From the NCBI GenBank assembly GCA_903839035.1, contig CAIMAQ010000024.1:1-64000 (forward strand): a stretch of 64,000 bases of DNA, read 5' to 3'. The position numbers and the translations under genes were made by a program. The notes beneath the pieces are model-generated. The model was not told the origin of the DNA. It made no database searches and saw only the letters and a program-made list of their open reading frames with translations. Origin of the DNA: an uncultured Opitutia bacterium. GTDB taxonomy: Bacteria > Verrucomicrobiota > Verrucomicrobiia > Opitutales > Opitutaceae. This document shows positions 26,721-43,153 of the stretch, piece after piece; position 1 is the stretch's first letter, and every line of letters begins with the position of its first letter.

Positions 26721-27440
26721 TCAGTTTTCGCCCAGGTTGCGGCGGAGCATGGCCTGCACCGCGGCGAGATTGTGGATGGTGATCTTCTTGCCGGAAACGG
26801 AGATGAGGCGCTGGTCGCGCAGGCGTCCGAGGGTGCGGGACAATGTCTCGCTGCTCGTGCCGAGTTCGGCGGCGAGGACCCGCTTCGTGCCGGGCAGCTG
26901 GATGGCGCCGCCCCGTGCGGCGTGGCTGTGCTTCACCAGCCAGTTGAGCAGGCGGGTTTCCACGTCCTTGAGGGTGAGGTCGTCGAGCATGCCGACCAGC
27001 ACGCGGAGGTGCCCGCTCATCGACCCGAGCATGCGCAGCGCGAGGTCGGGCCGGTGGCCGATGAGATCGAGCAGCGGGGCCTTGGGAAGGATGAGCACGG
27101 TGCTTGGCTCGACGGCGCGGGCGTTGGCAGGATAGCCGGTGGGGGTGGCGAGCGCCGCCTCGGCGAACGACTCGCCGGAGCGGAAAACGTGGATGACCTG
27201 TTCCTTGCCGGCGGCGCTGACGCGGTGGACGTTGACCGCCCCGCTTTGCACCAGGTAGCAGCCGCGCGCCGGTTCGCCCTCGTGGAACAGGTAGTCGTCC
27301 TTGGCCAGCTTTTGCATGACGGTGAAGCCTGCGATGACGGCGAGGTCCTCGGCCGACAGCCCGGAGAACAGCTGGCAGCAGCGCAGCGTGCCAATGAGCC
27401 CGGTGAGCTTAACGTCGGCGGGGCGGGGGGACGCAGGCAT
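26721..27440 (-). CDS. Crp/Fnr-family regulator (DNR/NNR-like)
   Basis: 239 residues: a cyclic-nucleotide-binding-type beta barrel (~15-130; DYLFHEGEPARGCYLVQSGA), a dimer helix and a winged helix with the recognition helix in ELGTSSETLSRTLGRLRDQR. The E-x-x-S-R recognition pattern is that of FNR/DNR proteins binding TTGA-type half sites. No FNR-type N-terminal Fe-S cysteine cluster is seen, so an NO-sensing DNR/NNR role fits better than O2-sensing FNR (inference). It is divergent from ric across a perfect TTGAC-N4-GTCAA box. ATG 27440 is chosen from the domain start. Confidence 0.9.
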   Translation of the reverse strand: MPASPRPADVKLTGLIGTLRCCQLFSGLSAEDLAVIAGFTVMQKLAKDDYLFHEGEPARGCYLVQSGAVNVHRVSAAGKEQVIHVFRSGESFAEAALATPTGYPANARAVEPSTVLILPKAPLLDLIGHRPDLALRMLGSMSGHLRVLVGMLDDLTLKDVETRLLNWLVKHSHAARGGAIQLPGTKRVLAAELGTSSETLSRTLGRLRDQRLISVSGKKITIHNLAAVQAMLRRNLGEN

Positions 27441-27520
27441 GACCGGCAGAGTGATACGAGGCGGGTCGGGGAGTCCCGCCCAAAATTCCGGCGGCCGGCT
27501 TTCACCGGGGCGCGGGTTGC

Positions 27521-27534
27521 TTGACACAGGTCAA
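27521..27534. promoter_or_regulatory. Crp/Fnr-type box upstream of ric
   Basis: TTGACACAGGTCAA is a perfect TTGAC-N4-GTCAA palindrome, 47 bp before the ric ATG and 80 bp before the divergent regulator gene. The same sequence form recurs before ctaB, the oxidase operon, nirK and the ywiC-like gene. Confidence 0.8.
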
Positions 27535-28320: not shown

Positions 28321-29244
28321 TCAGATTGCGACGAGCCGGTCCACGGCGAGCGCGGCCAGCACCAGCGGAAGAAAGAAAATCGACGCGAGGAAAAGGCGGC
28401 GCGCCGCCGGATCGCGGTCCGGCGTTGCCGCCGCAAACTGCCAGGCGCACAGGAGGAAGGCGCCGCCGGCCAGCGCCACCGTCACGCCATAGATTGCGCC
28501 GAGGTATCCGAGCGCCCACGGCGCCAGCGAGACGGGCAGCAGCAGCGCCGAGTAGAGCAGGGACCAGCGCGCGGTTTGCCGCCCGGTGGCATCGACCGCG
28601 GGCAGCAGCCTGAAGCCAGCGTTGCGATAGTCGGCGCGGTGCCGCCAGCCGATCGCAAAGAAATGCGGCATCTGCCAAAACAACAGGAAGCCGGCGAGGG
28701 CGACGCCCGGCGCGGCCCACAGGTCGCCCGCGGCGGCGTTGCCCAGCAGTGGCGGCAGTGCCCCCGACACCGCGCCGAGTTCGGTCGCCCAGCGCGTGCG
28801 GCGTTTGAGCGGCGTATAGACAAGCCCGTAGGCTAGGATAGTGAGGGTGGCGACCGCAGCGGCTGGGAGGTTGACCCGCACCGCCAGCACGCCGACACCG
28901 GCGCCGGAAAGGGTGAGGCTCCAGGCAAGGGCGGCGCCTGGGTGCAAGCGCCCCTGAGGGAGCGGCCGGCTGCGGGTACGGCGCATCTGCGCGTCGGCGC
29001 GACGCTCCCACCATTGGTTGAGGGAAAGCGCGCCGGCGGCCGCCAGCGAGGTGCCGGCAAAGGTGACCAGCGCACCGGCGGCCCCGGCCGTGGGCCGCGC
29101 GGCGCCGTAGGCCACCATGGAGGTGATCACCGACATCAGGGCCAGCTGCGGCTTCGTCAGCGCGATCAGCGCGCCGACGGTCGCGAGCCAGGCCGGCCGG
29201 GACTGGGCGGCCCGCAGCGGCTGGGTGATGGGGAGGCTCGTCAC
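28321..29244 (-). CDS. ctaB: Heme O synthase (protoheme IX farnesyltransferase)
   Basis: A 307-residue polytopic UbiA-family prenyltransferase that farnesylates heme B. The two polyprenyl-binding Asp-rich motifs appear as NQWWERRADAQMRRTRSRPL (first, DxxxD type) and WRHRADYRNAGFRLLPAVD (second). YTPLKRRTRWATELGAVSGA is characteristic of CtaB/CyoE. The start is GTG 29244; the only longer in-frame option is blocked by a stop. It is divergent from the heme-copper oxidase operon and has its own TTGAC-N4-ATCAA box, so heme O (or A) is probably made for that enzyme. Confidence 0.92.
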   Translation of the reverse strand: MTSLPITQPLRAAQSRPAWLATVGALIALTKPQLALMSVITSMVAYGAARPTAGAAGALVTFAGTSLAAAGALSLNQWWERRADAQMRRTRSRPLPQGRLHPGAALAWSLTLSGAGVGVLAVRVNLPAAAVATLTILAYGLVYTPLKRRTRWATELGAVSGALPPLLGNAAAGDLWAAPGVALAGFLLFWQMPHFFAIGWRHRADYRNAGFRLLPAVDATGRQTARWSLLYSALLLPVSLAPWALGYLGAIYGVTVALAGGAFLLCAWQFAAATPDRDPAARRLFLASIFFLPLVLAALAVDRLVAI

Positions 29245-29283: not shown

Positions 29284-29297
29284 TTGACTGGAATCAA
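29284..29297. promoter_or_regulatory. Crp/Fnr-type box upstream of ctaB
   Basis: TTGACTGGAATCAA, one mismatch from the TTGAC-N4-GTCAA form, lies 39 bp before the ctaB GTG. A second, perfect box in the same divergent region faces the oxidase operon. Confidence 0.7.
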
Positions 29298-29329: not shown

Positions 29330-29343
29330 TTGACCTGGGTCAA
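29330..29343. promoter_or_regulatory. Crp/Fnr-type box upstream of the oxidase operon
   Basis: TTGACCTGGGTCAA is a perfect TTGAC-N4-GTCAA palindrome, 34 bp before the first gene of the heme-copper oxidase operon, the spacing expected for an activator site next to a promoter. Confidence 0.8.
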
Positions 29344-29377: not shown

Positions 29378-30817
29378 ATGCCTCCTCCCGCGGCGTCACT
29401 GCCCCGACATTCCGTGCTTGAAACATCGCGGCCGTGCGCCGGGTTGACGGACGCGGCGGTGGATGGCAACGCGCCGGCCCGGGGCTGGTTTTTGCTGGCG
29501 GTTGGCAGCCTGGTGCTGGCGGGTCTGCTCTCGCTGACGCTGGTCGTCGGCCGGCTGCCGTTCCTTGGCTGGCTGTTTACGGACCCGCTGTTTTTCAAGC
29601 GGGCGCTGGTCGTGCACGTGGACCTGGCGATCGTGGTGTGGTTTCAGGCCGGCACGCTTGCCTTCCTTGGGCTGGCGCTCGGCCCGCGGCTGCACCGCGG
29701 GGTGACGGCGGCCGCGCTGGCGCTGGCGGCCATGGGCGTCGCCGGGATGCTCACGGGTGCGTGCATGCCGGGCGCGCTGCCCGTCCTCTCCAACTATGTG
29801 CCGGTGATCGACCATCCGGTTTTCTTTGGTGGGCTGGTTTGCTGGTTTGCCGGCGCCGGGCTGTTTTTCAGCCTGGCGCTGGCAACGTCGGCCCGCACCG
29901 ATGCCAAGGCGCTGACGCCCGACGCTGTAGTCGCACTGCGCGCCTCGGCCGTGGCCAACCTGCTCGCACTGGCGACCTTTGCGGGGGCCAGCCTGACGAC
30001 GCCGGCCTCGGCGCCGGCGGTGCATTACGAACTGGTGTTCTGGGGTGGCGGCCACGTGCTGCAGGCGGCCAATGTGGCGGCGATGCTGGCGCTGTGGCTG
30101 CACCTGCTGCACCGCTGGACCGGCCGGGCCGTGCTGACGCCGGCCGCGGCCACTGCGCTGGTCGCGGCGCTCGTGCTGCCGCAGCTCGTGCTGCCGCCGC
30201 TGGCGTTCGCCGGCACGACGGCCACGAACTATTTTTCAATGGCGACGCACCTGATGCGTTGGACAATCTTCCCGGTGGTGACTGTCGTGCTGGCCGCGGC
30301 CGCGGCCCATGTGTGGCGGCACCGCGCGGGGTTGAGCTGGCGCGACTATCGCTTCGCCGGCCTCGCCGGCAGCGCGACGCTGACGGTACTGGGCTTCATC
30401 CTCGGGTCGCTGATCCGGAGTTCGAGCACGCTGGTGCCGGGCCATTACCACTGCGCCATCGGCGCCGTGACGATCGCGTTGATGACGGCAGCGTATGAAT
30501 TCTCCGGGACGGTCGCGCCGGTGGCGGCCCCGGCTCCGGCCCCGCGCCACGCGCGCCTCCAGCTGCTGCTCTTCGGCGGCGGGCAGGCGGTCTTTGGCCT
30601 CGGGTTCGCGCTGGCCGGCGCCTATGGCCTCGGCCGCAAGCAATACGGCAGCGAGCAGCACGTGCGCTCTCTCGGCGAATATCTCGGGCTCAGCGTCATG
30701 GGCCTCGGCGGTCTGGTCGCCGTGGCCAGCGGGATCCTTTTTCTGGCGGTGATACTGCGCGGTCTGGGCGCGTGGCGCCGCCGGCCCATTCCAGTTGCCT
30801 CATTCCAACATGAATAA
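29378..30817 (+). CDS. Heme-copper oxidase subunit I homologue lacking CuB ligands
   Basis: A 479-residue membrane protein with about 12 hydrophobic segments. It aligns by eye with the oxidase subunit at 31537: H80 in ALVVHVDLAIVVWF (helix II), H226 in FWGGGHVLQAANVAAM (helix VI) and H356/H358 in LVPGHYHCAIGAVTIALM (helix X) are kept. The His-His pair of helix VII is absent; the region reads FSMATHLMRW. Two hemes could still bind, but CuB should not, so it is more likely an electron-transfer or structural subunit than a reductase. It is the first gene of the operon and overlaps the next small gene by 8 bp. Confidence 0.82.
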   Translation: MPPPAASLPRHSVLETSRPCAGLTDAAVDGNAPARGWFLLAVGSLVLAGLLSLTLVVGRLPFLGWLFTDPLFFKRALVVHVDLAIVVWFQAGTLAFLGLALGPRLHRGVTAAALALAAMGVAGMLTGACMPGALPVLSNYVPVIDHPVFFGGLVCWFAGAGLFFSLALATSARTDAKALTPDAVVALRASAVANLLALATFAGASLTTPASAPAVHYELVFWGGGHVLQAANVAAMLALWLHLLHRWTGRAVLTPAAATALVAALVLPQLVLPPLAFAGTTATNYFSMATHLMRWTIFPVVTVVLAAAAAHVWRHRAGLSWRDYRFAGLAGSATLTVLGFILGSLIRSSSTLVPGHYHCAIGAVTIALMTAAYEFSGTVAPVAAPAPAPRHARLQLLLFGGGQAVFGLGFALAGAYGLGRKQYGSEQHVRSLGEYLGLSVMGLGGLVAVASGILFLAVILRGLGAWRRRPIPVASFQHE

Positions 30818-30959
30818 CGAATCCAAGAAACACCCGTGGCAGAAGGTGCTCGATAACCCCTGGCTGCTCCTCGTCCTCGGCGTCCTCATCCCGGTCCTCT
30901 CCTACACGGTGTGGGGCTGGATTGAGCTGCTGCTCACCAAACCCGCCCTGCTGCCCTGA
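30810..30959 (+). CDS. Small single-span membrane subunit
   Basis: A 49-residue protein (MNNESKKHPWQKVLDNPW, then one hydrophobic helix LLLVLGVLIPVLSYTVWGWIE). The gene starts inside the last codons of the preceding subunit and ends 13 bp before the CuA gene, so it is part of the operon. It resembles the tiny accessory subunits of heme-copper oxidases in size and topology; there is no sequence family I can name. Confidence 0.75.
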   Translation: MNNESKKHPWQKVLDNPWLLLVLGVLIPVLSYTVWGWIELLLTKPALLP

Positions 30960-30972
30960 CCCCCATTGACCC

Positions 30973-31524
30973 ATGAGCCTGCGTCCCCTCACCACCCCTT
31001 GGTTCCACGGCCCGGCCGGCCACGAAAAAATCTGGCTCGGTTGCGCCATCCTCTGGTGCTTCGTGATGTCGCTGATGATGCCGTACTGGCATTTCCGCGG
31101 CAAACAGAACAGCACCGGCGAGGCCTACACGGTCAAGCCCGCCGATTTTTTCGCCCGCACGGAAAAATTTGTCGCGTCCAACCGGGTCGGCACCTTCAAG
31201 AATCCGATCGCGAACGCGCTGATGACGGAGCTGCCGATCGTCGAGCCCCCGGCCGGCGGCGACGCCTACCTGATGGGCCGCATGTGGCAGTGGTATCCCG
31301 CGCTGCGGCTGCGCAAGGGCGAGACCTACCGGCTGCACCTCTCGTCGCTCGACCTGCAGCACGGTTTCTCGCTGCAGCCCCTGAACATGAACTTCCAGGT
31401 GCTGCCCGGCTACGACCACGTGTTGACCATCACGCCGACTTCCACCGGCGAGTTCACCATCGTCTGCAACGAGTTTTGTGGCGCCGGCCACCACGCCATG
31501 ACCGGCAAGATCTTCGTCGAATAA
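30973..31524 (+). CDS. Cytochrome oxidase / NO reductase subunit II with CuA site
   Basis: 183 residues: one N-terminal membrane helix (IWLGCAILWCFVMSLMMPYW) and a cupredoxin domain. All CuA ligands are present: H130 (DLQHGFSLQP), C165, C169, H173 and M176 in CNEFCGAGHHAM. It should accept electrons from a soluble carrier and pass them to the catalytic subunit encoded 12 bp downstream. It has one membrane helix, unlike the usual two of aa3 oxidases. Confidence 0.92.
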   Translation: MSLRPLTTPWFHGPAGHEKIWLGCAILWCFVMSLMMPYWHFRGKQNSTGEAYTVKPADFFARTEKFVASNRVGTFKNPIANALMTELPIVEPPAGGDAYLMGRMWQWYPALRLRKGETYRLHLSSLDLQHGFSLQPLNMNFQVLPGYDHVLTITPTSTGEFTIVCNEFCGAGHHAMTGKIFVE

Positions 31525-31536
31525 CCGCACCCCGCC

Positions 31537-33240
31537 ATGTCCAATCCCTCCCATTCCCTCTCCGCTCCCGGCGCTCCCGGGCGCGTGTGCGGCACCACCG
31601 GCCTGAGCGTCTGTTTCGCCGCCCAGCGCTTCATCAAGCTCAATGCCGTCAGCGGCATTGTCTTCCTGCTGCTCGGCGGCATTGCCGCGCTGTTGCTGGC
31701 GCTCACGCGCTGGCAGACGGTGCATCTCCTGCCGGTCGACTGGTTCTACCGCATCCTGACGTTCCACGGCATCAACATGCTGATCCTGTGGATCCTGTTC
31801 TTTGAGGTCGCGATCCTCTACTTCGCCTGCACGACCCCGCTGAACTGCCGGCTCTTCTCGCGCAAGATCGCCTGGGCCTCGTTCGGGATGATGCTCACCG
31901 GCGCCGTCATGGTGGACTACATCATCCTCGCCGGCCGGGCCGACGTGATGATGACGTCCTACCTGCCGCTGCTGGCGCACCCGCTCTTCTACCTCGGCAT
32001 TATCCTCGTGGCGGTGGGCACGCTGACCGGGGTGTTCAATTTCTTCGCCACGCTCTACGTGGCCAAGCGGGACGGCGCCTACACCGGCTCGATGCCGATC
32101 GTGACCTTCGGCGCGCTCGCCGCCGCCATCATCGCGGTCGTCACGCTGCTGCATGGCGCGGTGGTGATGATCCCGACCTTCACCTACTCGATGGGCTGGA
32201 CCGCCCAGCCCGATCCGGCGTGGTACCGGCTGATCTGGTGGGGCCTGGGTCACCAGTCGCAACAGGTCAATGTCTGCGCGATGGTCGCCGTCTGGTATTT
32301 GCTCTCACACATCACCGTCGGGGCCCGCCCGATCAACGAGGCCGTGTGCCGGACGGCGTTCGTGCTCTACATCCTGTTCATCAATCTCGCCTCGGCGCAT
32401 CACTTGCTGGTGGACCCGGGCGTCGGCGCCACCTGGAAGATCTGGAACACATCCTACGCCATGTACCTCGCGGTGCTCGCTTCGATGATCCACGGCTTCA
32501 CTGTGCCGGCGGGGGTCGAGCTCGCCATGCGCGAGAAAGGCTACACCAACGGCATCTTCGGCTGGGTCACGGCGCTGCCGTGGAGAAACCCGGCGTTCTC
32601 CGGCACCGCGCTATCGCTGGTAATCTTCGGTTTCCTCGGCGGCATCACCGGGGTCACCCTCGGCACGCAGCAGATCAACATCATCGCGCACAACACGCTG
32701 CGCATCCCCGGGCACTTTCACGTGACCGTCGTCGGCGGCACCACGCTGGCCTTCATGGCCCTCGCGTATTACGTGATCCCGCTGATTTTCCAGCGGGACT
32801 TCATTTTCCGCGGCGTGGCGCGGGTGCAGCCTTGGCTGTTCGGCATTGGCATCACCATGGTCGCGTTCGGCATGTCGTTCGCCGGCTCGATGGGGGTGCC
32901 TCGCCGCAGCTGGGACATTGACGCGCAGGGGGTCTACGGCCCCGCGGCGCACCTCTGGCTCGGCGTGCTGGGCATGGGCGGGATCCTCGCCTTCACCGGT
33001 CTGCTGATCTTTGCGCTGCTCTGCGTCGGCACGCTCTTCTTCGGTGCGAAGATCGAGGGCCGCGCGATGGCCGACTGGGGCACGCCGCCGGCGCTCGCCG
33101 GCAGCCAGCCGGGCTCGCTCGCCCACGACCACTACGCCACAAAGGGCACGATCGTCCTCACACTCGCCTTCCTCGCGTGCTTTGCGGTCTATTACTTCGC
33201 GAACTGGAAAGCGTTGGCCGACGTCTGGCCCGTGCGCTGA
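31537..33240 (+). CDS. Heme-copper oxidase catalytic subunit, probable NO reductase type
   Basis: A 567-residue 12-14-helix catalytic subunit. The six metal-binding His are seen: H77 (LTFHGINMLILWI), H239 (WWGLGHQSQQVNV), H288-H289 (LASAHHLLVDPG) and H393/H395 (IPGHFHVTVVGG). After the helix VI His the O2-reductase HPEVY motif is replaced by HQSQQ, so the cross-linked Tyr is missing. This feature is known from NO-reducing members of the superfamily (eNOR/bNOR/sNOR types). With nirK, ric and NO-type boxes nearby, NO reduction to N2O is the best guess; oxygen reduction by an unusual oxidase is not excluded. Confidence 0.85.
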   Translation: MSNPSHSLSAPGAPGRVCGTTGLSVCFAAQRFIKLNAVSGIVFLLLGGIAALLLALTRWQTVHLLPVDWFYRILTFHGINMLILWILFFEVAILYFACTTPLNCRLFSRKIAWASFGMMLTGAVMVDYIILAGRADVMMTSYLPLLAHPLFYLGIILVAVGTLTGVFNFFATLYVAKRDGAYTGSMPIVTFGALAAAIIAVVTLLHGAVVMIPTFTYSMGWTAQPDPAWYRLIWWGLGHQSQQVNVCAMVAVWYLLSHITVGARPINEAVCRTAFVLYILFINLASAHHLLVDPGVGATWKIWNTSYAMYLAVLASMIHGFTVPAGVELAMREKGYTNGIFGWVTALPWRNPAFSGTALSLVIFGFLGGITGVTLGTQQINIIAHNTLRIPGHFHVTVVGGTTLAFMALAYYVIPLIFQRDFIFRGVARVQPWLFGIGITMVAFGMSFAGSMGVPRRSWDIDAQGVYGPAAHLWLGVLGMGGILAFTGLLIFALLCVGTLFFGAKIEGRAMADWGTPPALAGSQPGSLAHDHYATKGTIVLTLAFLACFAVYYFANWKALADVWPVR

Positions 33241-33261: not shown

Positions 33262-34254
33262 ATGTCCCACTCGCTCAGCTTGGCCTCCCCCGCACCGCCG
33301 GCGCGGTCGGACTCCGCGGGGGAGCGCTTCCTGACCGGGCCCGGCCTGCTGGTGTTTCTGTTCACCGCACTTGCCGCGTACCAGGCCTTTCTGCTGGTTA
33401 CGATCTTCGGGCCGACGCAGGGCGGCCCGCTGGGCGACTTCGTGCGCGATTTCCAGCTCTGGTGTTACCGGGGCGACCCGCGCACCGGCGGGATTTCGTG
33501 GCTGGCGGTCTCGGTGATGATGCTTGAGCCGGTCTTCATCGTCGCCGTGGCGGCGCTGCTGTGGCGGGAGATTTTTGTGCAGTTGATCCACGTCCGCACC
33601 TGGCTGACGCATGCGCGGGCGGCGGGCGCGGGTCTGGGCGTGATCGCGGTTTGCGTCGCCGGGCTGGTGTCCTACGCCCGCGCCGATGCGGCCCGGGCGC
33701 AGGTGCTGCCGCCGTTTCCCGGTGAAAGCATCCGGCTCCGGCTCGACCTGCCCGCGGGACCGTTCGTGGATCAGAAAGGCGCCGTCTTCCGCTTTGCCGA
33801 CCTGCGCGGACGGGTGGTGCTCGTCACCGGGGTCTATGCGGCCTGCACCACCGCCTGCCCGGAGATTTTCCTCGAGGTGAAAAAGATTCTCGGGGAACTG
33901 CCCGCCGCCGACCGGGCCGGCCTGAGCGTGGTGGCGCTCTCGCTCAACCCGGAATACGAGACGTCGGAGCTGATGAACCTCGTGGCCGAGGGGCGCGGAC
34001 TGTCGCACCCGGAGTTCCGCTACGTCAACGGCCGGAACCCCGCCGCGATGCACGAGGTGCTGACGCGGATGCAGTTCTCCGCCACGCGTAACCCGCAGAC
34101 GGGCGTCGTTGACCACGCCAATTTGTTCCTGCTCGTCGACCGCTCCGGTCACATCGCCTACCGTCTTACGCTGGATCCGCGCCATCGCGCCTGGCTCCGC
34201 GCGGGCCTGCGCGCCCTGCTGCGCGAGCCTTATGCCGCCGGACCTGCATCCTGA
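33262..34254 (+). CDS. SCO1/SenC copper chaperone with N-terminal membrane domain
   Basis: 330 residues. The N-terminal ~145 residues contain three hydrophobic helices (LLVFLFTALAAYQAFLLVTI; WLAVSVMMLEPVFIVAVAAL; AGLGVIAVCVAGLVSYA). The C-terminal thioredoxin-fold SCO domain has the CxxxC copper site (VYAACTTACPEIF) and the distal His (DHANLFLLVD). It should load copper into the CuA subunit. The extra helices are unusual for SCO proteins, which normally have one. It overlaps the next gene by 23 bp. Confidence 0.88.
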   Translation: MSHSLSLASPAPPARSDSAGERFLTGPGLLVFLFTALAAYQAFLLVTIFGPTQGGPLGDFVRDFQLWCYRGDPRTGGISWLAVSVMMLEPVFIVAVAALLWREIFVQLIHVRTWLTHARAAGAGLGVIAVCVAGLVSYARADAARAQVLPPFPGESIRLRLDLPAGPFVDQKGAVFRFADLRGRVVLVTGVYAACTTACPEIFLEVKKILGELPAADRAGLSVVALSLNPEYETSELMNLVAEGRGLSHPEFRYVNGRNPAAMHEVLTRMQFSATRNPQTGVVDHANLFLLVDRSGHIAYRLTLDPRHRAWLRAGLRALLREPYAAGPAS

Positions 34255-36361
34255 CGTGGATTGCGAGGTGCTGGCCGAGTCGCTGGGGCCGTCTCCCAAC
34301 CCGCCCGGCAGCCAGCCGCCGCCGCCGCCCACCCGCGCCGCCCGGCTCCTGGCTGCGGGCGACGGGCTCGGCACGCGGCTGGACGCGCTGCTGGAGCGGT
34401 GGCTGCCGCGCGAGGTGAACCCGCTCGCCCAGCTCGGGCCCGCGGCCAACGCCATGCTGCTGCTGGCGACGCTGTCCGGTGTGCTGATGCTCCTGTGGTA
34501 TTCGGCGAGCGTGCAGTCGGCGTGGCGCTCGCTGGCCGACCTGGGCCCGCGCTCCCCTGGCGGGATCGTGCGCAGCGTGCACCGCTACTCGTCGGACCTG
34601 CTGATGCTGCTGGTGCTGGCGCATGCGCTGCGGACCTTTTTCGCGCGGAAGTTCGCGGATGCCCGCTGGCTGGCGTGGGTGAGCGGCATCGCGCTGCTCG
34701 GCCTGGTGTGGTTCATCGGCTGGACCGGCTATTGGCTGGTGTGGGATGTGCGCGCCCAGCTGCTCGCCCTCGACACGATGAAGGCGGTGGATGTGCTGCC
34801 CGTGTTTGGCGAGCCGATGCTGCGCCTGTTCGCCTCGGACCGCACGGTGCCGTCGCTCCTGTTCTTCGTGGTGTTCTTCCTGCACATGGTGCTGCCGCTG
34901 GGCATTGCCGGCGGGCTGTGCCTGCACCTGGCGCGGCTGAGCCGGTCGCAACTGCTGCCGGACTGGCGGCTGAGCGCGTGGCTGACCGGGGCCGTCGTGG
35001 CGGCGGCCCTGGCGTATCCCGCGGTCAACGCCACGATCGCGCAGATGGCGGTGAAACCCGGCCGGCTCACGATGGACTGGTGGTTCCTCTGGCCGCTGAT
35101 CATCACGGCGCGCCTGTCGGGTGGCGGCCTCTGGCTGGCGACCTTTCTCGCCGCGGCCGGCCTGCTGACCGTGCCGTGGTGGCTGGCCCGCCGCCGGCCG
35201 CGCGCCGTCTACCAGGCCACGATCAACATTTCGCGCTGCTTTGCCTGCACGCTCTGCTCACACGACTGCCCGTTCGGCGCGATCACGATGGTGCCGCGCA
35301 CCGATGGCCGGCCGTTTCCCTCGCAGGCGCAGATCGATCCCAACCGCTGCATCGGCTGCGGGGTGTGCGCTGGCGCGTGCGATACGCAAGGCATCGGCCT
35401 CGCCTGGTTCGACGCCCAGCAGGTCACGCGCGAGCTTGAAGCCTTTGTCCTTGCGGAGGTCGCCAAGGGTGCGCCGCCCGCGCTCGCGCTGGTCTGCGTG
35501 CAGTCGGACGGCGGCTGGGAGCTGTTTGCCGCCGGGGCATGGCAGACGCGGCTGCCGGGTTACGTCGTGCGGCCGATTCCGTGCGTGGGTTGGGTGGAGC
35601 CGAAGCTGGTGGAGCGCCTCGTCAGCAGGGGAGCGGCGGCGGTGCTGATCGTGGGCTGTGGCTCGAGCGAGGCGTTCTGCAAGGAGGGCAACCGCTGGCT
35701 GCCGGAGCGGCTGAGCGGCGCGCGGGAACCTGCGTTTCGTCCCAATCGCGCGGATCCGCGCCGGGTCGCACACGTGATTTTTGACCCGCTTCAGCCTGCG
35801 CTTCTGGCCGCGGCCACTGAAAATCTCCGGGCGCTGCAACCGGTGCCGGTGGCTCCCCGCCGGGGCTGGTTCGGGCAGTTGACCGCCGGGCTGCTCCTGA
35901 CCGCCATCGGCCTCGCCGCGCTCCTGCTGGCCAGCGATGCCCCCTTCCACAATCCCGCGCCACCGGAGGCGGAGTTCGTTTTCACGTTCCGGGCGTATGG
36001 TGAATGGATTTCCGGCGCGGTGGCGGCCCTGCCGGATCCGGCCCATGACACGCGCCCGGTGCACATGCGCACCGCGCAGCCGGCTCAACGCACCCGCTCG
36101 CCGGTCGTCGTGCAGGTTGTGGTGGATGGACGGGGGGAGGAGCGCGTTTTTCACCCCAAGGGCTTCAAGTCCGATGGCTTCTCGGTCGGCGAGGTGCGGG
36201 CGGTGCTCACGCCGGGCTTGCACCAGGTCTCGGTCAGCGTCGCCACGCACGCGGGGCCGAATGCCCCCCGTCAGACGTGGTCGGCCGGGATCAACGCCCG
36301 GCCCGGGCGGCTGACGGTGCTCACCCTCGAGGCCAACCGCGGGTTCCAGTTGGAGCCTTGA
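34232..36361 (+). CDS. Cytochrome b / di-cluster ferredoxin / MvhD-like fusion protein
   Basis: A 709-residue multidomain membrane protein. Residues ~65-320 form a cytochrome b domain with both bis-His heme pairs, H117/H131 and H218/H232, each 14 apart. Residues ~330-390 form a ferredoxin with two [4Fe-4S] motifs (CFACTLCSHDCP, CIGCGVCAGACD). Residues ~415-530 resemble the MvhD/HdrA-associated delta subunit (IPCVGWVEPKLVERL, LIVGCGSSEAFCKEGNRW), then a C-terminal helix (GLLLTAIGLAALLLA) and an extracytoplasmic beta domain. It probably feeds electrons from quinol or ferredoxin to the oxidase. I know of no described enzyme with this order. Confidence 0.85.
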   Translation: MPPDLHPDVDCEVLAESLGPSPNPPGSQPPPPPTRAARLLAAGDGLGTRLDALLERWLPREVNPLAQLGPAANAMLLLATLSGVLMLLWYSASVQSAWRSLADLGPRSPGGIVRSVHRYSSDLLMLLVLAHALRTFFARKFADARWLAWVSGIALLGLVWFIGWTGYWLVWDVRAQLLALDTMKAVDVLPVFGEPMLRLFASDRTVPSLLFFVVFFLHMVLPLGIAGGLCLHLARLSRSQLLPDWRLSAWLTGAVVAAALAYPAVNATIAQMAVKPGRLTMDWWFLWPLIITARLSGGGLWLATFLAAAGLLTVPWWLARRRPRAVYQATINISRCFACTLCSHDCPFGAITMVPRTDGRPFPSQAQIDPNRCIGCGVCAGACDTQGIGLAWFDAQQVTRELEAFVLAEVAKGAPPALALVCVQSDGGWELFAAGAWQTRLPGYVVRPIPCVGWVEPKLVERLVSRGAAAVLIVGCGSSEAFCKEGNRWLPERLSGAREPAFRPNRADPRRVAHVIFDPLQPALLAAATENLRALQPVPVAPRRGWFGQLTAGLLLTAIGLAALLLASDAPFHNPAPPEAEFVFTFRAYGEWISGAVAALPDPAHDTRPVHMRTAQPAQRTRSPVVVQVVVDGRGEERVFHPKGFKSDGFSVGEVRAVLTPGLHQVSVSVATHAGPNAPRQTWSAGINARPGRLTVLTLEANRGFQLEP

Positions 36362-40716: not shown

Positions 40717-42231
40717 TCAGTGGTTTTCGTTGCGGATGGCCTTCACCTGCGCGGTCGAGAGCGCGTCGCCCTTGTTGCCCCAGGAGTTGAGGACAAACGT
40801 GAGCACATCGGCGATCTGCGCGTCGGTCAGGACGGCTTCCTGGGGTGGCATGGCGCTGTTGAAGGTCTGGCCGTTGACGGTGACCGGGCCGGTGAGGCCC
40901 TTGAGAATGATGCGCACGGCGCGCTCGTGGTCGGCCTGCAGGAAATCGGAGAGCGCGAGCGGGGGAAACGCGCCCGGCAGGCCCTTGCCGTCCGGCTGGT
41001 GACAGGCGAAGCACAGGCCCATGTAGACCTGTTGGCCCTTCTCGATCTGCATTTCCTTGGTGAGGCCGGCGATGGTGGGGTTGGATTTGATCTCGGCGGC
41101 AATGCGGGTCTTCAGCGCGGCCTCGCGCTTGGCGGACTCGGAGCCGGCGTCGGCCTGGGCGCCGAGGTAGACGGCGTCGATTTCCTTGCCGGAGTAAACG
41201 ATGCGGTTTTCGGGGCCGGTGACCTTGAGCATGCCGAGCGCGCCCTTGTTGAACGCGCGGGTCAGCGAGTGATCGACGAGGATGAACGTGCCCGGGACAT
41301 CGACCTTGAACTCGACGGCGACGGCACCGCCCGAGGGGACGAGGGTGGTTTGCACGTTGCGGTTGGGCAGGCTGAGTCCGCCCTCGGGGTACACCGTGTC
41401 AAAGATCTCGCCGATGATGTGGAAAGACGAGGTGACGTTGGGTCCGCCCACGCCGAAGTAGATGCGGACCCGCTGGCCGACGCTGGCGGTGAGGGCCTTG
41501 TCGCCCACGAGCGAGCCGACGGCGCCGTTGAAGACGATATAGGGCGGGCGCTCGTCGATGGCCTTGCCCATGTCGAAGGACTGCAGGCCCTCCTCGCCGT
41601 ATTTGCCGGTGGTGTAGAACTCACCCTGCATGACGTAGTATTCTTGGTCGACGGGCGGGAGGCCGTCTTTGGGCTCGACGAGGATGAGCCCATACATGCC
41701 GCTACCGATGTGCATGGGTACGGGGGCGGTGGCGCAGTGGTAGACGAAGAGGCCGGGATTCAGTGCCTGGAAAGTGAACTGCGAGCTGTGGCCCGGGGCG
41801 GTGAACGTCGAGGCGGCGCCGCCACCCGGGCCGGTGACCGCGTGCAGGTCGATATTGTGGGGCAGCTTGGAGGACGGGTGGTTGTTGAGGTGGAACTCGA
41901 CGACATCACCCTCGCGGATGCGGATGAATGAGCCGGGCACGCTGCCGCCATAGGTCCAGAAGGTGTACTCGACGCCGTCGGCAAGCCGCTTGACGACCTC
42001 CCGCACCTCCAGGTTGACGATGACGCGGGCGGCGTACTTGCGCTTGAGCGGCGGCGGCACATTCGGGGCCGGGGTGAGAACGGCCTGCTCCACCGGCATA
42101 TCGAGAACGGTGACCGGGAGCGGCACGAGTCCCTTGGTTTGAGCCGTGCCTTCCTGGGCGGTGAGGGACGGATTCAAGAGGCCCAGCAAGGACAGTAACG
42201 CTGTGGCCGGGAATAGGCGGGAGGTTTTCAT
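40717..42231 (-). CDS. nirK: Copper-containing nitrite reductase with C-terminal cytochrome c domain
   Basis: A 504-residue periplasmic enzyme reducing nitrite to NO. After a signal peptide come two cupredoxin domains. Type-1 Cu ligands are H125, C166, H174 and M179 ([15 protein letters not shown]); type-2 Cu ligands are H130, H165 and H321. The catalytic Asp (D128 in HNIDLH) and His (H271 in SSFHIIG) are present. A fused c-type heme domain follows (CFACHQ, C407-H411, Met ligand near 461). The fusion should let small donors feed the type-1 site directly. It is the first gene of a six- to seven-gene operon under a TTGAC-N4-GTCAA box. Confidence 0.96.
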
Positions 42232-42284: not shown

Positions 42285-42298
42285 TTGACGCAGGTCAA
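42285..42298. promoter_or_regulatory. Crp/Fnr-type box upstream of nirK
   Basis: TTGACGCAGGTCAA is a perfect TTGAC-N4-GTCAA palindrome, 53 bp before the nirK ATG. It overlaps the stop codon of the upstream ywiC-like gene. Confidence 0.8.
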
Positions 42299-43104
42299 TT
42301 TATCGCGCCGTTCTGATTTAGCGACTGGTGATAGGCAAAAGTGAGAACCCCGAGAAGTACCCCACCAAGGACGGCCTCCAGGATACCCACGCGGCGGGCG
42401 GACCAGCCGGGGTGAAAAGCCGAGAGCAGCCACGCCGTTCGCAGCCAGAGCACGGTGCCCGCCGCCACGGCGAGCGGCGGGATCCAGCCCCGCAGGGCGA
42501 GGAGGGTCAATCCGGCCCATGCCACGCTCGCTGCGACCACGGCAGAAGTGGCGCTGAAGGGCTGATCCTTGCTCCGGCGCAAATACGATCGGACGGTGAG
42601 GACGGTGGGCACGCTGCGTGCGAGGGCGACGGCGGCCAGGGCCAGGGCGGCGGGAGCGGGCCAGCCGGCGAGGGTGGCTCCGGCGGCGGGCAACAGTGCG
42701 AACGCGGCGCTGCCGGCGAGTTCTGCCTCGGTTTCACGCATGGCGTTGCGGAGGTCGAACCAAAGGAAGAGCCCGCCCAGGGGCGCGGCCAGCAGCAAGG
42801 GCCAGAGCAAGCGGATTGACCCGAGGAAGGCCGTGGCGGTCAGGGCCCCGATGGCGAGTAGCGCGACAACCACCGCGACGGTGCGGGCAGGCATTCGGCG
42901 CGGATCCGACGAAGGGAGGGTCAGGGCAAGTTTGAGCGGCCGGCGGGTGAAAAAACCGGCGCCGGCGGCCAGCGCGAGCGCGATTCCAGCTGCTGACGGG
43001 GCGACCAGGAGAAACAACCCGACGGGCTCAAACGCGAGCGACCAACTGCCATGTTCCTTGGGCAGGATGAGGGCGCGGAAGCTGGAGACGCGGGTCGCGG
43101 TCAT
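42295..43104 (-). CDS. YwiC-like family membrane protein
   Basis: A 269-residue membrane protein with about eight hydrophobic helices. The N-terminal PKEHGSWSLAFEPVGLFLL is the YwiC signature (PKEHGAWAM type). Function is unknown; in Bacillus ywiC lies near fnr and narK, and many homologues lie beside nitrogen-oxide genes. It has its own Crp/Fnr-type box 35 bp upstream and precedes nirK by 63 bp. Confidence 0.88.
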   Translation of the reverse strand: MTATRVSSFRALILPKEHGSWSLAFEPVGLFLLVAPSAAGIALALAAGAGFFTRRPLKLALTLPSSDPRRMPARTVAVVVALLAIGALTATAFLGSIRLLWPLLLAAPLGGLFLWFDLRNAMRETEAELAGSAAFALLPAAGATLAGWPAPAALALAAVALARSVPTVLTVRSYLRRSKDQPFSATSAVVAASVAWAGLTLLALRGWIPPLAVAAGTVLWLRTAWLLSAFHPGWSARRVGILEAVLGGVLLGVLTFAYHQSLNQNGAIN

Positions 43105-43139: not shown

Positions 43140-43153
43140 TTGATGCAGGTCAA
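43140..43153. promoter_or_regulatory. Crp/Fnr-type box upstream of the ywiC-like gene
   Basis: TTGATGCAGGTCAA, one mismatch from the TTGAC-N4-GTCAA form, lies 35 bp before the ywiC-like ATG. Confidence 0.7.

Follow-up and report, generated by a model that had tools for sequence, protein, structure and literature searches.

A CuB-deficient paralogue of subunit I encoded in the eNOR operon of an uncultured Opitutia bacterium

Introduction

Why should an operon for a nitric oxide (NO) reductase encode subunit I twice, once with and once without its CuB ligands? The question is raised by positions 29378-33240 of the DNA analysed here, a stretch of 64,000 nucleotides from an uncultured Opitutia bacterium of the Opitutaceae (contig CAIMAQ010000024.1 of assembly GCA_903839035.1, positions 1 to 64,000; hereafter the window). 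An earlier note on this DNA had proposed a CuA-type, NO-reductase-like complex with two subunit I homologues, forming an undescribed heterodimeric core. The open reading frames lie where that note placed them, and the operon does comprise a CuA subunit and a 49-residue membrane subunit:

29378..30817, + strand: alpha, a subunit I paralogue with a deficient CuB site, predicted to hold two haems
30810..30959, + strand: 49-residue single-helix membrane subunit, overlapping the 3' end of alpha
30973..31524, + strand: subunit II with a CuA domain (COX2 and CoxB matches; CuA ligands invariant among 64 homologues)
31537..33240, + strand: catalytic subunit I of eNOR, B family, with the motif HQSQQ

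We use the name alpha for the 29378-30817 protein and for its family.

Results

Alpha has lost CuB and keeps the haem ligands

In family searches of the window proteins alpha itself had no Pfam or NCBIfam match, while relatives of it reach COX1 matches down to 2e-14. As the earlier note had claimed, it is homologous to the 31537 protein along its length (30% identity, E = 4e-15), and a profile-profile comparison of the two families with hhalign gives E = 2e-34 over 419 columns. The alpha family profile also aligns end to end with ba3 of Thermus thermophilus (E = 5e-13), and the AlphaFold model of alpha (mean pLDDT, the predicted local confidence score, 92) is a complete haem-copper subunit I fold that superposes on whole haem-copper subunits (Z 33).

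The residue roles used in the following (haem and CuB ligands, K-channel Tyr, propionate Arg) are those generally known for ba3. By the ba3 alignment, H80 in helix II of alpha is the low-spin haem His, H226 in helix VI the first CuB His, H356 the proximal His of haem a3 and H358 in helix X the second low-spin His, and all four are invariant in 75 of 75 alpha homologues. The His-His pair in helix VII of ba3, on the other hand, finds no His opposite in the alpha family alignment, just as had been proposed from the window alone. The column of the first of these His is a gap in 98% of the alpha rows; that of the second (269) holds His in 27 and Gln in 24 of the 75 homologues, the window alpha having Gln. 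In all 75, a His-His pair is absent from the CuB place. A hidden His pair was considered and rejected, as the lone HH of that span, found in one homologue, lies well before the CuB column. The window alpha is thus firmly CuB-free, and some of its relatives keep two of the three CuB ligands.

Measured against what defines a haem-copper subunit I, alpha has the 12-helix fold, the low-spin bis-His pair and the proximal His, but of the three CuB His only H226 remains. Compared column by column with eNOR, it also retains W222 and, at the site of the propionate-binding Arg pair, R420/K421, and it lacks both helix-VII His, Q243, Y254 (K-channel), H385 and N386. The column of the active-site Tyr or Gln is A230 in the window alpha and shows no family consensus. 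N139, E218 and Y357 are invariants specific to alpha. The ratio of non-synonymous to synonymous substitution rates (dN/dS) of 0.13-0.19 against four relatives indicates purifying selection. Taken together, alpha is very likely a functional, non-catalytic, haem-keeping subunit I paralogue, and the retained ligands suggest that it would most likely bind both haems.

Another degenerate haem-copper homologue occurs in the window's own genome, a C-family protein resembling CcoN in which no His set can be recognised (C113:7174-8400).

The catalytic enzyme is an eNOR

Which enzyme does alpha accompany? The 31537 protein matches Pfam COX1 (6e-63), and its best solved relatives are the subunit I chains of T. 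thermophilus ba3 (4e-45). It retains all six metal-ligand His (H77, H239, H288/H289, H393 and H395), and the absence of the active-site Tyr, which the earlier note had read from HQSQQ, extends to the whole family: Gln occupies this position in 62 of 62 sequences (the window and 61 other loci), all of which read H-x-S-Q-Q in helix VI. The helix-VII His-His pair and H393 are present in all 62; 61 also have the His of the H395 column, where the remaining sequence has Lys. On two T. thermophilus plasmids and in one Cyclobacteriaceae member, eNOR subunit I reads GHFK for GHFH, an exchange of the second low-spin haem His for Lys.

The Tyr-to-Gln change is a published mark of eNOR (PMC8756737 Table A4; PMC8879329), which under its other name, ba3-a1, has been reported to reduce NO (PMC8879329); PMC11388526 cites a report of NO reduction by eNOR. 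Gln-bearing relatives of the 31537 protein, 44-50% identical to it, are encoded on plasmids of Defluviimonas, Thermomicrobium roseum and T. thermophilus in the order small gene, subunit II, subunit I, so that the small gene before subunit II is also found in the eNOR operons of these genera; one Thermus plasmid additionally carries an adjoining nirS. In trees the window enzyme falls inside this Thermus/Thermomicrobium/Defluviimonas group, apart from the Tyr-bearing B-family enzymes. It is also joined there with eNORs of Rhodothermia, including that of one genome from an alpha-free branch of this class, presumed to be Rhodothermus marinus DSM 4252.

An sNOR identity was considered because of the CuA/SenC arrangement and was excluded, as sNOR has Asn and not Gln at the Tyr position. 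With B-family ancestry, Gln for Tyr, six metal His and a CuA subunit II all found, the 31537 protein together with the 30973 and 30810 proteins is close to certainly an eNOR, a known type of NO reductase that ordinarily comprises a CuA subunit and a small membrane subunit. The proposal of a CuA-type, Tyr-less, NO-reductase-like enzyme therefore stands, and with it the CuB-deficient subunit I homologue in the operon; the catalytic part of the core, however, belongs to an existing family. Of the two findings that the earlier note had named as refuting it, neither was made: alpha has no helix-VII His-His pair, and the 31537 protein does not fall inside an O2-reductase clade.

Origin and distribution of alpha

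Is alpha a peculiarity of this genome or a common companion of eNOR? In the tree, alpha forms a single clade whose sister group comprises every eNOR, whether or not accompanied by alpha, and it has Q229 and W88 in common with eNOR, unlike other B-family enzymes. On both grounds alpha seems to go back to an early duplication on the eNOR stem, with an exact root that its fast evolution leaves uncertain. Across about 85,000 species scanned, 77 alpha loci came to light; their hosts include Verrucomicrobiota, Planctomycetota, Myxococcota, Spirochaetota, Bacteroidota, Balneolota and Acidobacteriota. The set of alpha, small gene, cox2 and cox1 is held by 62 loci, in identical order and strand in 60 of them, and is usually followed 3' by SCO and then by a fusion gene of cytochrome b, FeS and FlpD-like parts. 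Over these 62 loci the distances of alpha and cox1 correlate with r = 0.90, and those of cox1 and cox2 likewise with 0.95. A search of plasmids, phages and viral contigs gave no alpha match.

As these loci were found via alpha, they are a biased set; an unbiased count comes from Opitutaceae, where 45 of 200 genomes have eNOR and alpha stands beside it in 32 of the 33 loci inspected, the 33rd being cut by a contig end with an alpha fragment still visible. Rhodothermia are mixed: of nineteen genomes with eNOR, eight form the separate alpha-free branch, and the remaining eleven comprise seven with an adjoining alpha and four without.

The alpha profile also matches 58 of 80 genomes of Rickettsiales, the order of Anaplasma, mostly at full length, with E-values that are somewhat inflated since the profile held one Anaplasma sequence. 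These alphas are the sister clade of the eNOR-linked ones; among 18 examined, H80, H226, Q229, R420 and K421 are present in all and H356 and H358 in 17. They occur with no eNOR nearby, and the Anaplasma genome has no eNOR match beyond alpha itself, the other Rickettsiales genomes not having been searched whole for eNOR.

Regulation and a likely nitrite-to-N2O pathway

Around the operon the window holds the following further genes and Crp/Fnr-type boxes:

26721..27527, - strand: Crp/Fnr-family regulator, probable regulator of the cluster (cNMP_binding 5e-22, HTH_Crp_2 5e-16), divergent from ric
27521..27534: Crp/Fnr-type box TTGACACAGGTCAA 5' of ric, between the regulator gene and ric, of the form TTGAC-N4-GTCAA
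27564..28304, + strand: ric, RIC/ScdA di-iron iron-sulfur repair protein, a nitrosative-stress gene (TIGR03652 above cut-off)
28321..29244, - strand: ctaB, haem O synthase CtaB, divergent from alpha (TIGR01473 above cut-off)
29284..29297: Crp/Fnr-type box 1, 5' of alpha
29330..29343: Crp/Fnr-type box 2, 5' of alpha, TTGACCTGGGTCAA
33262..34254, + strand: SCO1/SenC copper chaperone with an N-terminal extension (SCO1-SenC 9e-12)
34232..36361, + strand: fusion of b6-type cytochrome b, 4Fe-4S and FlpD-like parts, start inferred at the first ATG
40717..42231, - strand: NirK copper nitrite reductase with a C-terminal cytochrome c (TIGR02376, 356 bits, above cut-off; also Pfam)
42285..42298: Crp/Fnr-type box 5' of nirK
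42295..43104, - strand: YwiC-like membrane protein (PF14256 3e-16)
43140..43153: Crp/Fnr-type box 5' of the YwiC-like gene

The consensus TTGAYN4GTCAA has only five sites in the whole 3.39-Mb assembly, two of them before alpha and one each before ric, nirK and the YwiC-like gene. We infer that the 26721 protein may be the binder of these boxes. Among 44 Verrucomicrobiota loci, many of them close relatives, 42 have such a box 5' of alpha; none of 28 other loci does. NirK with its fused cytochrome c belongs to the same box-defined regulon as ric and alpha. A YwiC-like gene is likewise found near the eNOR of a Thermus plasmid.

In the genome NirK is encoded (TIGR02376), NirS is absent, NosZ has no match above cut-off, and there is no second NO reductase among the four COX1-family proteins. 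An isolate of Opitutales with NirK and with eNorAB as its sole NO reductase, Verruconatronum alginivorum, grows by nitrite respiration to nitrous oxide (N2O) (PMC13274419). Judging from this gene content, the route from nitrite over NO to N2O is likely in the present organism as well. The gene for the fusion protein is kept 3' of SCO in the eNOR branch of the window enzyme, and the fusion protein is a possible electron donor module.

Discussion

What, then, does alpha do? We propose that NirK would make NO, which the eNOR-type, CuA-containing NO reductase would convert to N2O, that a Crp/Fnr-type regulator responding to NO or low oxygen would control the operon, and that the product of its first gene, the non-catalytic and CuB-deficient alpha with most likely still two haems, may work as a dedicated membrane partner of eNOR. 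Its most likely form would be that of a second subunit, with fold and haem pair preserved, which transfers or stores electrons or modulates the enzyme but does not itself catalyse NO reduction; a heterodimer of alpha and eNOR subunit I is plausible. A partnership is supported by the overlap of the alpha gene with the small-subunit gene and by the order of alpha, CuA subunit and subunit I, which is conserved across phyla. We hold this reading tentatively, with a probability just short of one half (about 0.48).

Several observations weigh against it. Thermus, Thermomicrobium, Defluviimonas, the presumed R. marinus group and the four further Rhodothermia genomes have eNOR without alpha, so alpha is not needed for eNOR chemistry. 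Conversely, some Planctomycetota and Acidobacteriota genomes have alpha away from eNOR; in the eleven genomes with such a separate alpha, six have eNOR elsewhere and five have no eNOR match. Among the 18 Rickettsiales loci, ctaA/Cox15 adjoins alpha in 7 and SURF1 is near in 6, and one alpha lies directly 5' of coxBA-ctaB-ctaG-coxC, an aa3 oxidase operon. The ctaA-linked loci usually hold a second conserved gene, an aminotransferase of class I/II taken to be 5-aminolaevulinate synthase. The alpha-free eNOR lineages and these Rickettsiales neighbours require that a role in biogenesis or a stand-alone role be weighed.

A function in haem-copper biogenesis, or as an accessory protein, is what the Rickettsiales context suggests. 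Alpha could accordingly be a subunit I mimic that stores haem o/a, passes it on or serves as an assembly template, its client being eNOR in most phyla and aa3 oxidase in Rickettsiales. The divergent ctaB, which takes an equivalent position in many Verrucomicrobiota alpha loci, the combination of retained haem ligands with a lost catalytic site and proton path, and the eNORs that do without alpha would all fit such a factor; the overlap of alpha with structural genes in the window operon and the mostly divergent or convergent, not co-transcribed, neighbours in Rickettsiales argue against it. Mainly on account of the Rickettsiales context we keep this non-subunit explanation at about one chance in three. 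Alpha might also be an independent haem protein of the regulon (for example an NO- or O2-binding sensor or scavenger, or a quinol-linked electron carrier) with no lasting contact to eNOR, as the stand-alone alphas of Rickettsiales, Gracilimonas and some Planctomycetota and the function of eNOR elsewhere without alpha could suggest. However, the overlap with structural genes, the conserved place inside the operon and its presence at every inspected Opitutaceae eNOR locus (32 complete and one fragment) make this improbable. In Gracilimonas the stand-alone alpha lies directly 3' of a cytochrome P450 gene (L095:6821-9398).

Two further explanations concern the catalytic enzyme and the integrity of alpha. 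A 31537 enzyme that mainly reduces O2 despite the lost Tyr would fit its descent from the B family and its full complement of six metal His; yet the Tyr is missing in every member, nirK and ric belong to the regulon and genome context, the Opitutales relative turns nitrite into N2O (PMC13274419) and NO reduction is reported for eNOR (as cited in PMC11388526), which leaves this explanation with very little weight. The faster divergence of alpha, with a mean identity of 48% against 73% for cox1 over the 62 loci, might suggest that it is decaying into a pseudogene or results from misassembly, but it is open in dozens of genomes with invariant ligands and a dN/dS below 0.2, and this idea is refuted.

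We set at even odds the broader view that the alphas make up a hitherto unrecognised branch of the haem-copper superfamily, deficient in copper and holding two haems, which separated at the base of eNOR and acts as pseudo-enzyme partner or haem-handling chaperone of haem-copper enzymes in many phyla, among them the obligate intracellular Rickettsiales. A literature search found no description of a conserved subunit I homologue with its haem sites present and most of its CuB site lost, and nothing relevant on the Rickettsiales gene, although absence from the literature is thereby unproven in either case. If real and functional, the family would offer a natural pseudo-enzyme for probing the role of CuB in the haem-copper superfamily, add a component to a widely distributed N2O-producing enzyme and provide, for Rickettsiales, a candidate protein of oxidase biogenesis or a candidate haem protein. 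As Rhodothermia hold eNORs with and without alpha in one class, the role of alpha is directly testable there.

How does this operon compare with known systems? With eNOR/ba3-a1 it has in common the Gln at the Tyr position, the helix-VI motif HxxQQxN, the CuA subunit II, the one-helix small subunit and the gene order; it adds the CuB-deficient paralogue, SCO and the cytochrome b/FeS/FlpD gene, all three of which the presumed R. marinus operon lacks. Subunit I of T. thermophilus ba3, by sequence the best solved relative of both the 31537 protein and alpha, corresponds in fold and haem ligands, but has the Tyr, a complete CuB site and no paralogue. The sNOR (NorSY-SenC), gNOR and bNOR enzymes resemble the present one in joining a CuA or cupredoxin subunit II to a Tyr-less, B-family-like subunit I, with SenC in the sNOR cluster, and differ in having N, D and N, respectively, at the Tyr position (PMC8756737 Table A4) instead of Gln. 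The putative pairing of alpha with eNOR recalls yet another arrangement. In cytochrome bd, the catalytic subunit CydA is paired with CydB, a homologue whose active site is lost; these proteins belong to an unrelated superfamily, and their likeness to alpha is one of analogy only.

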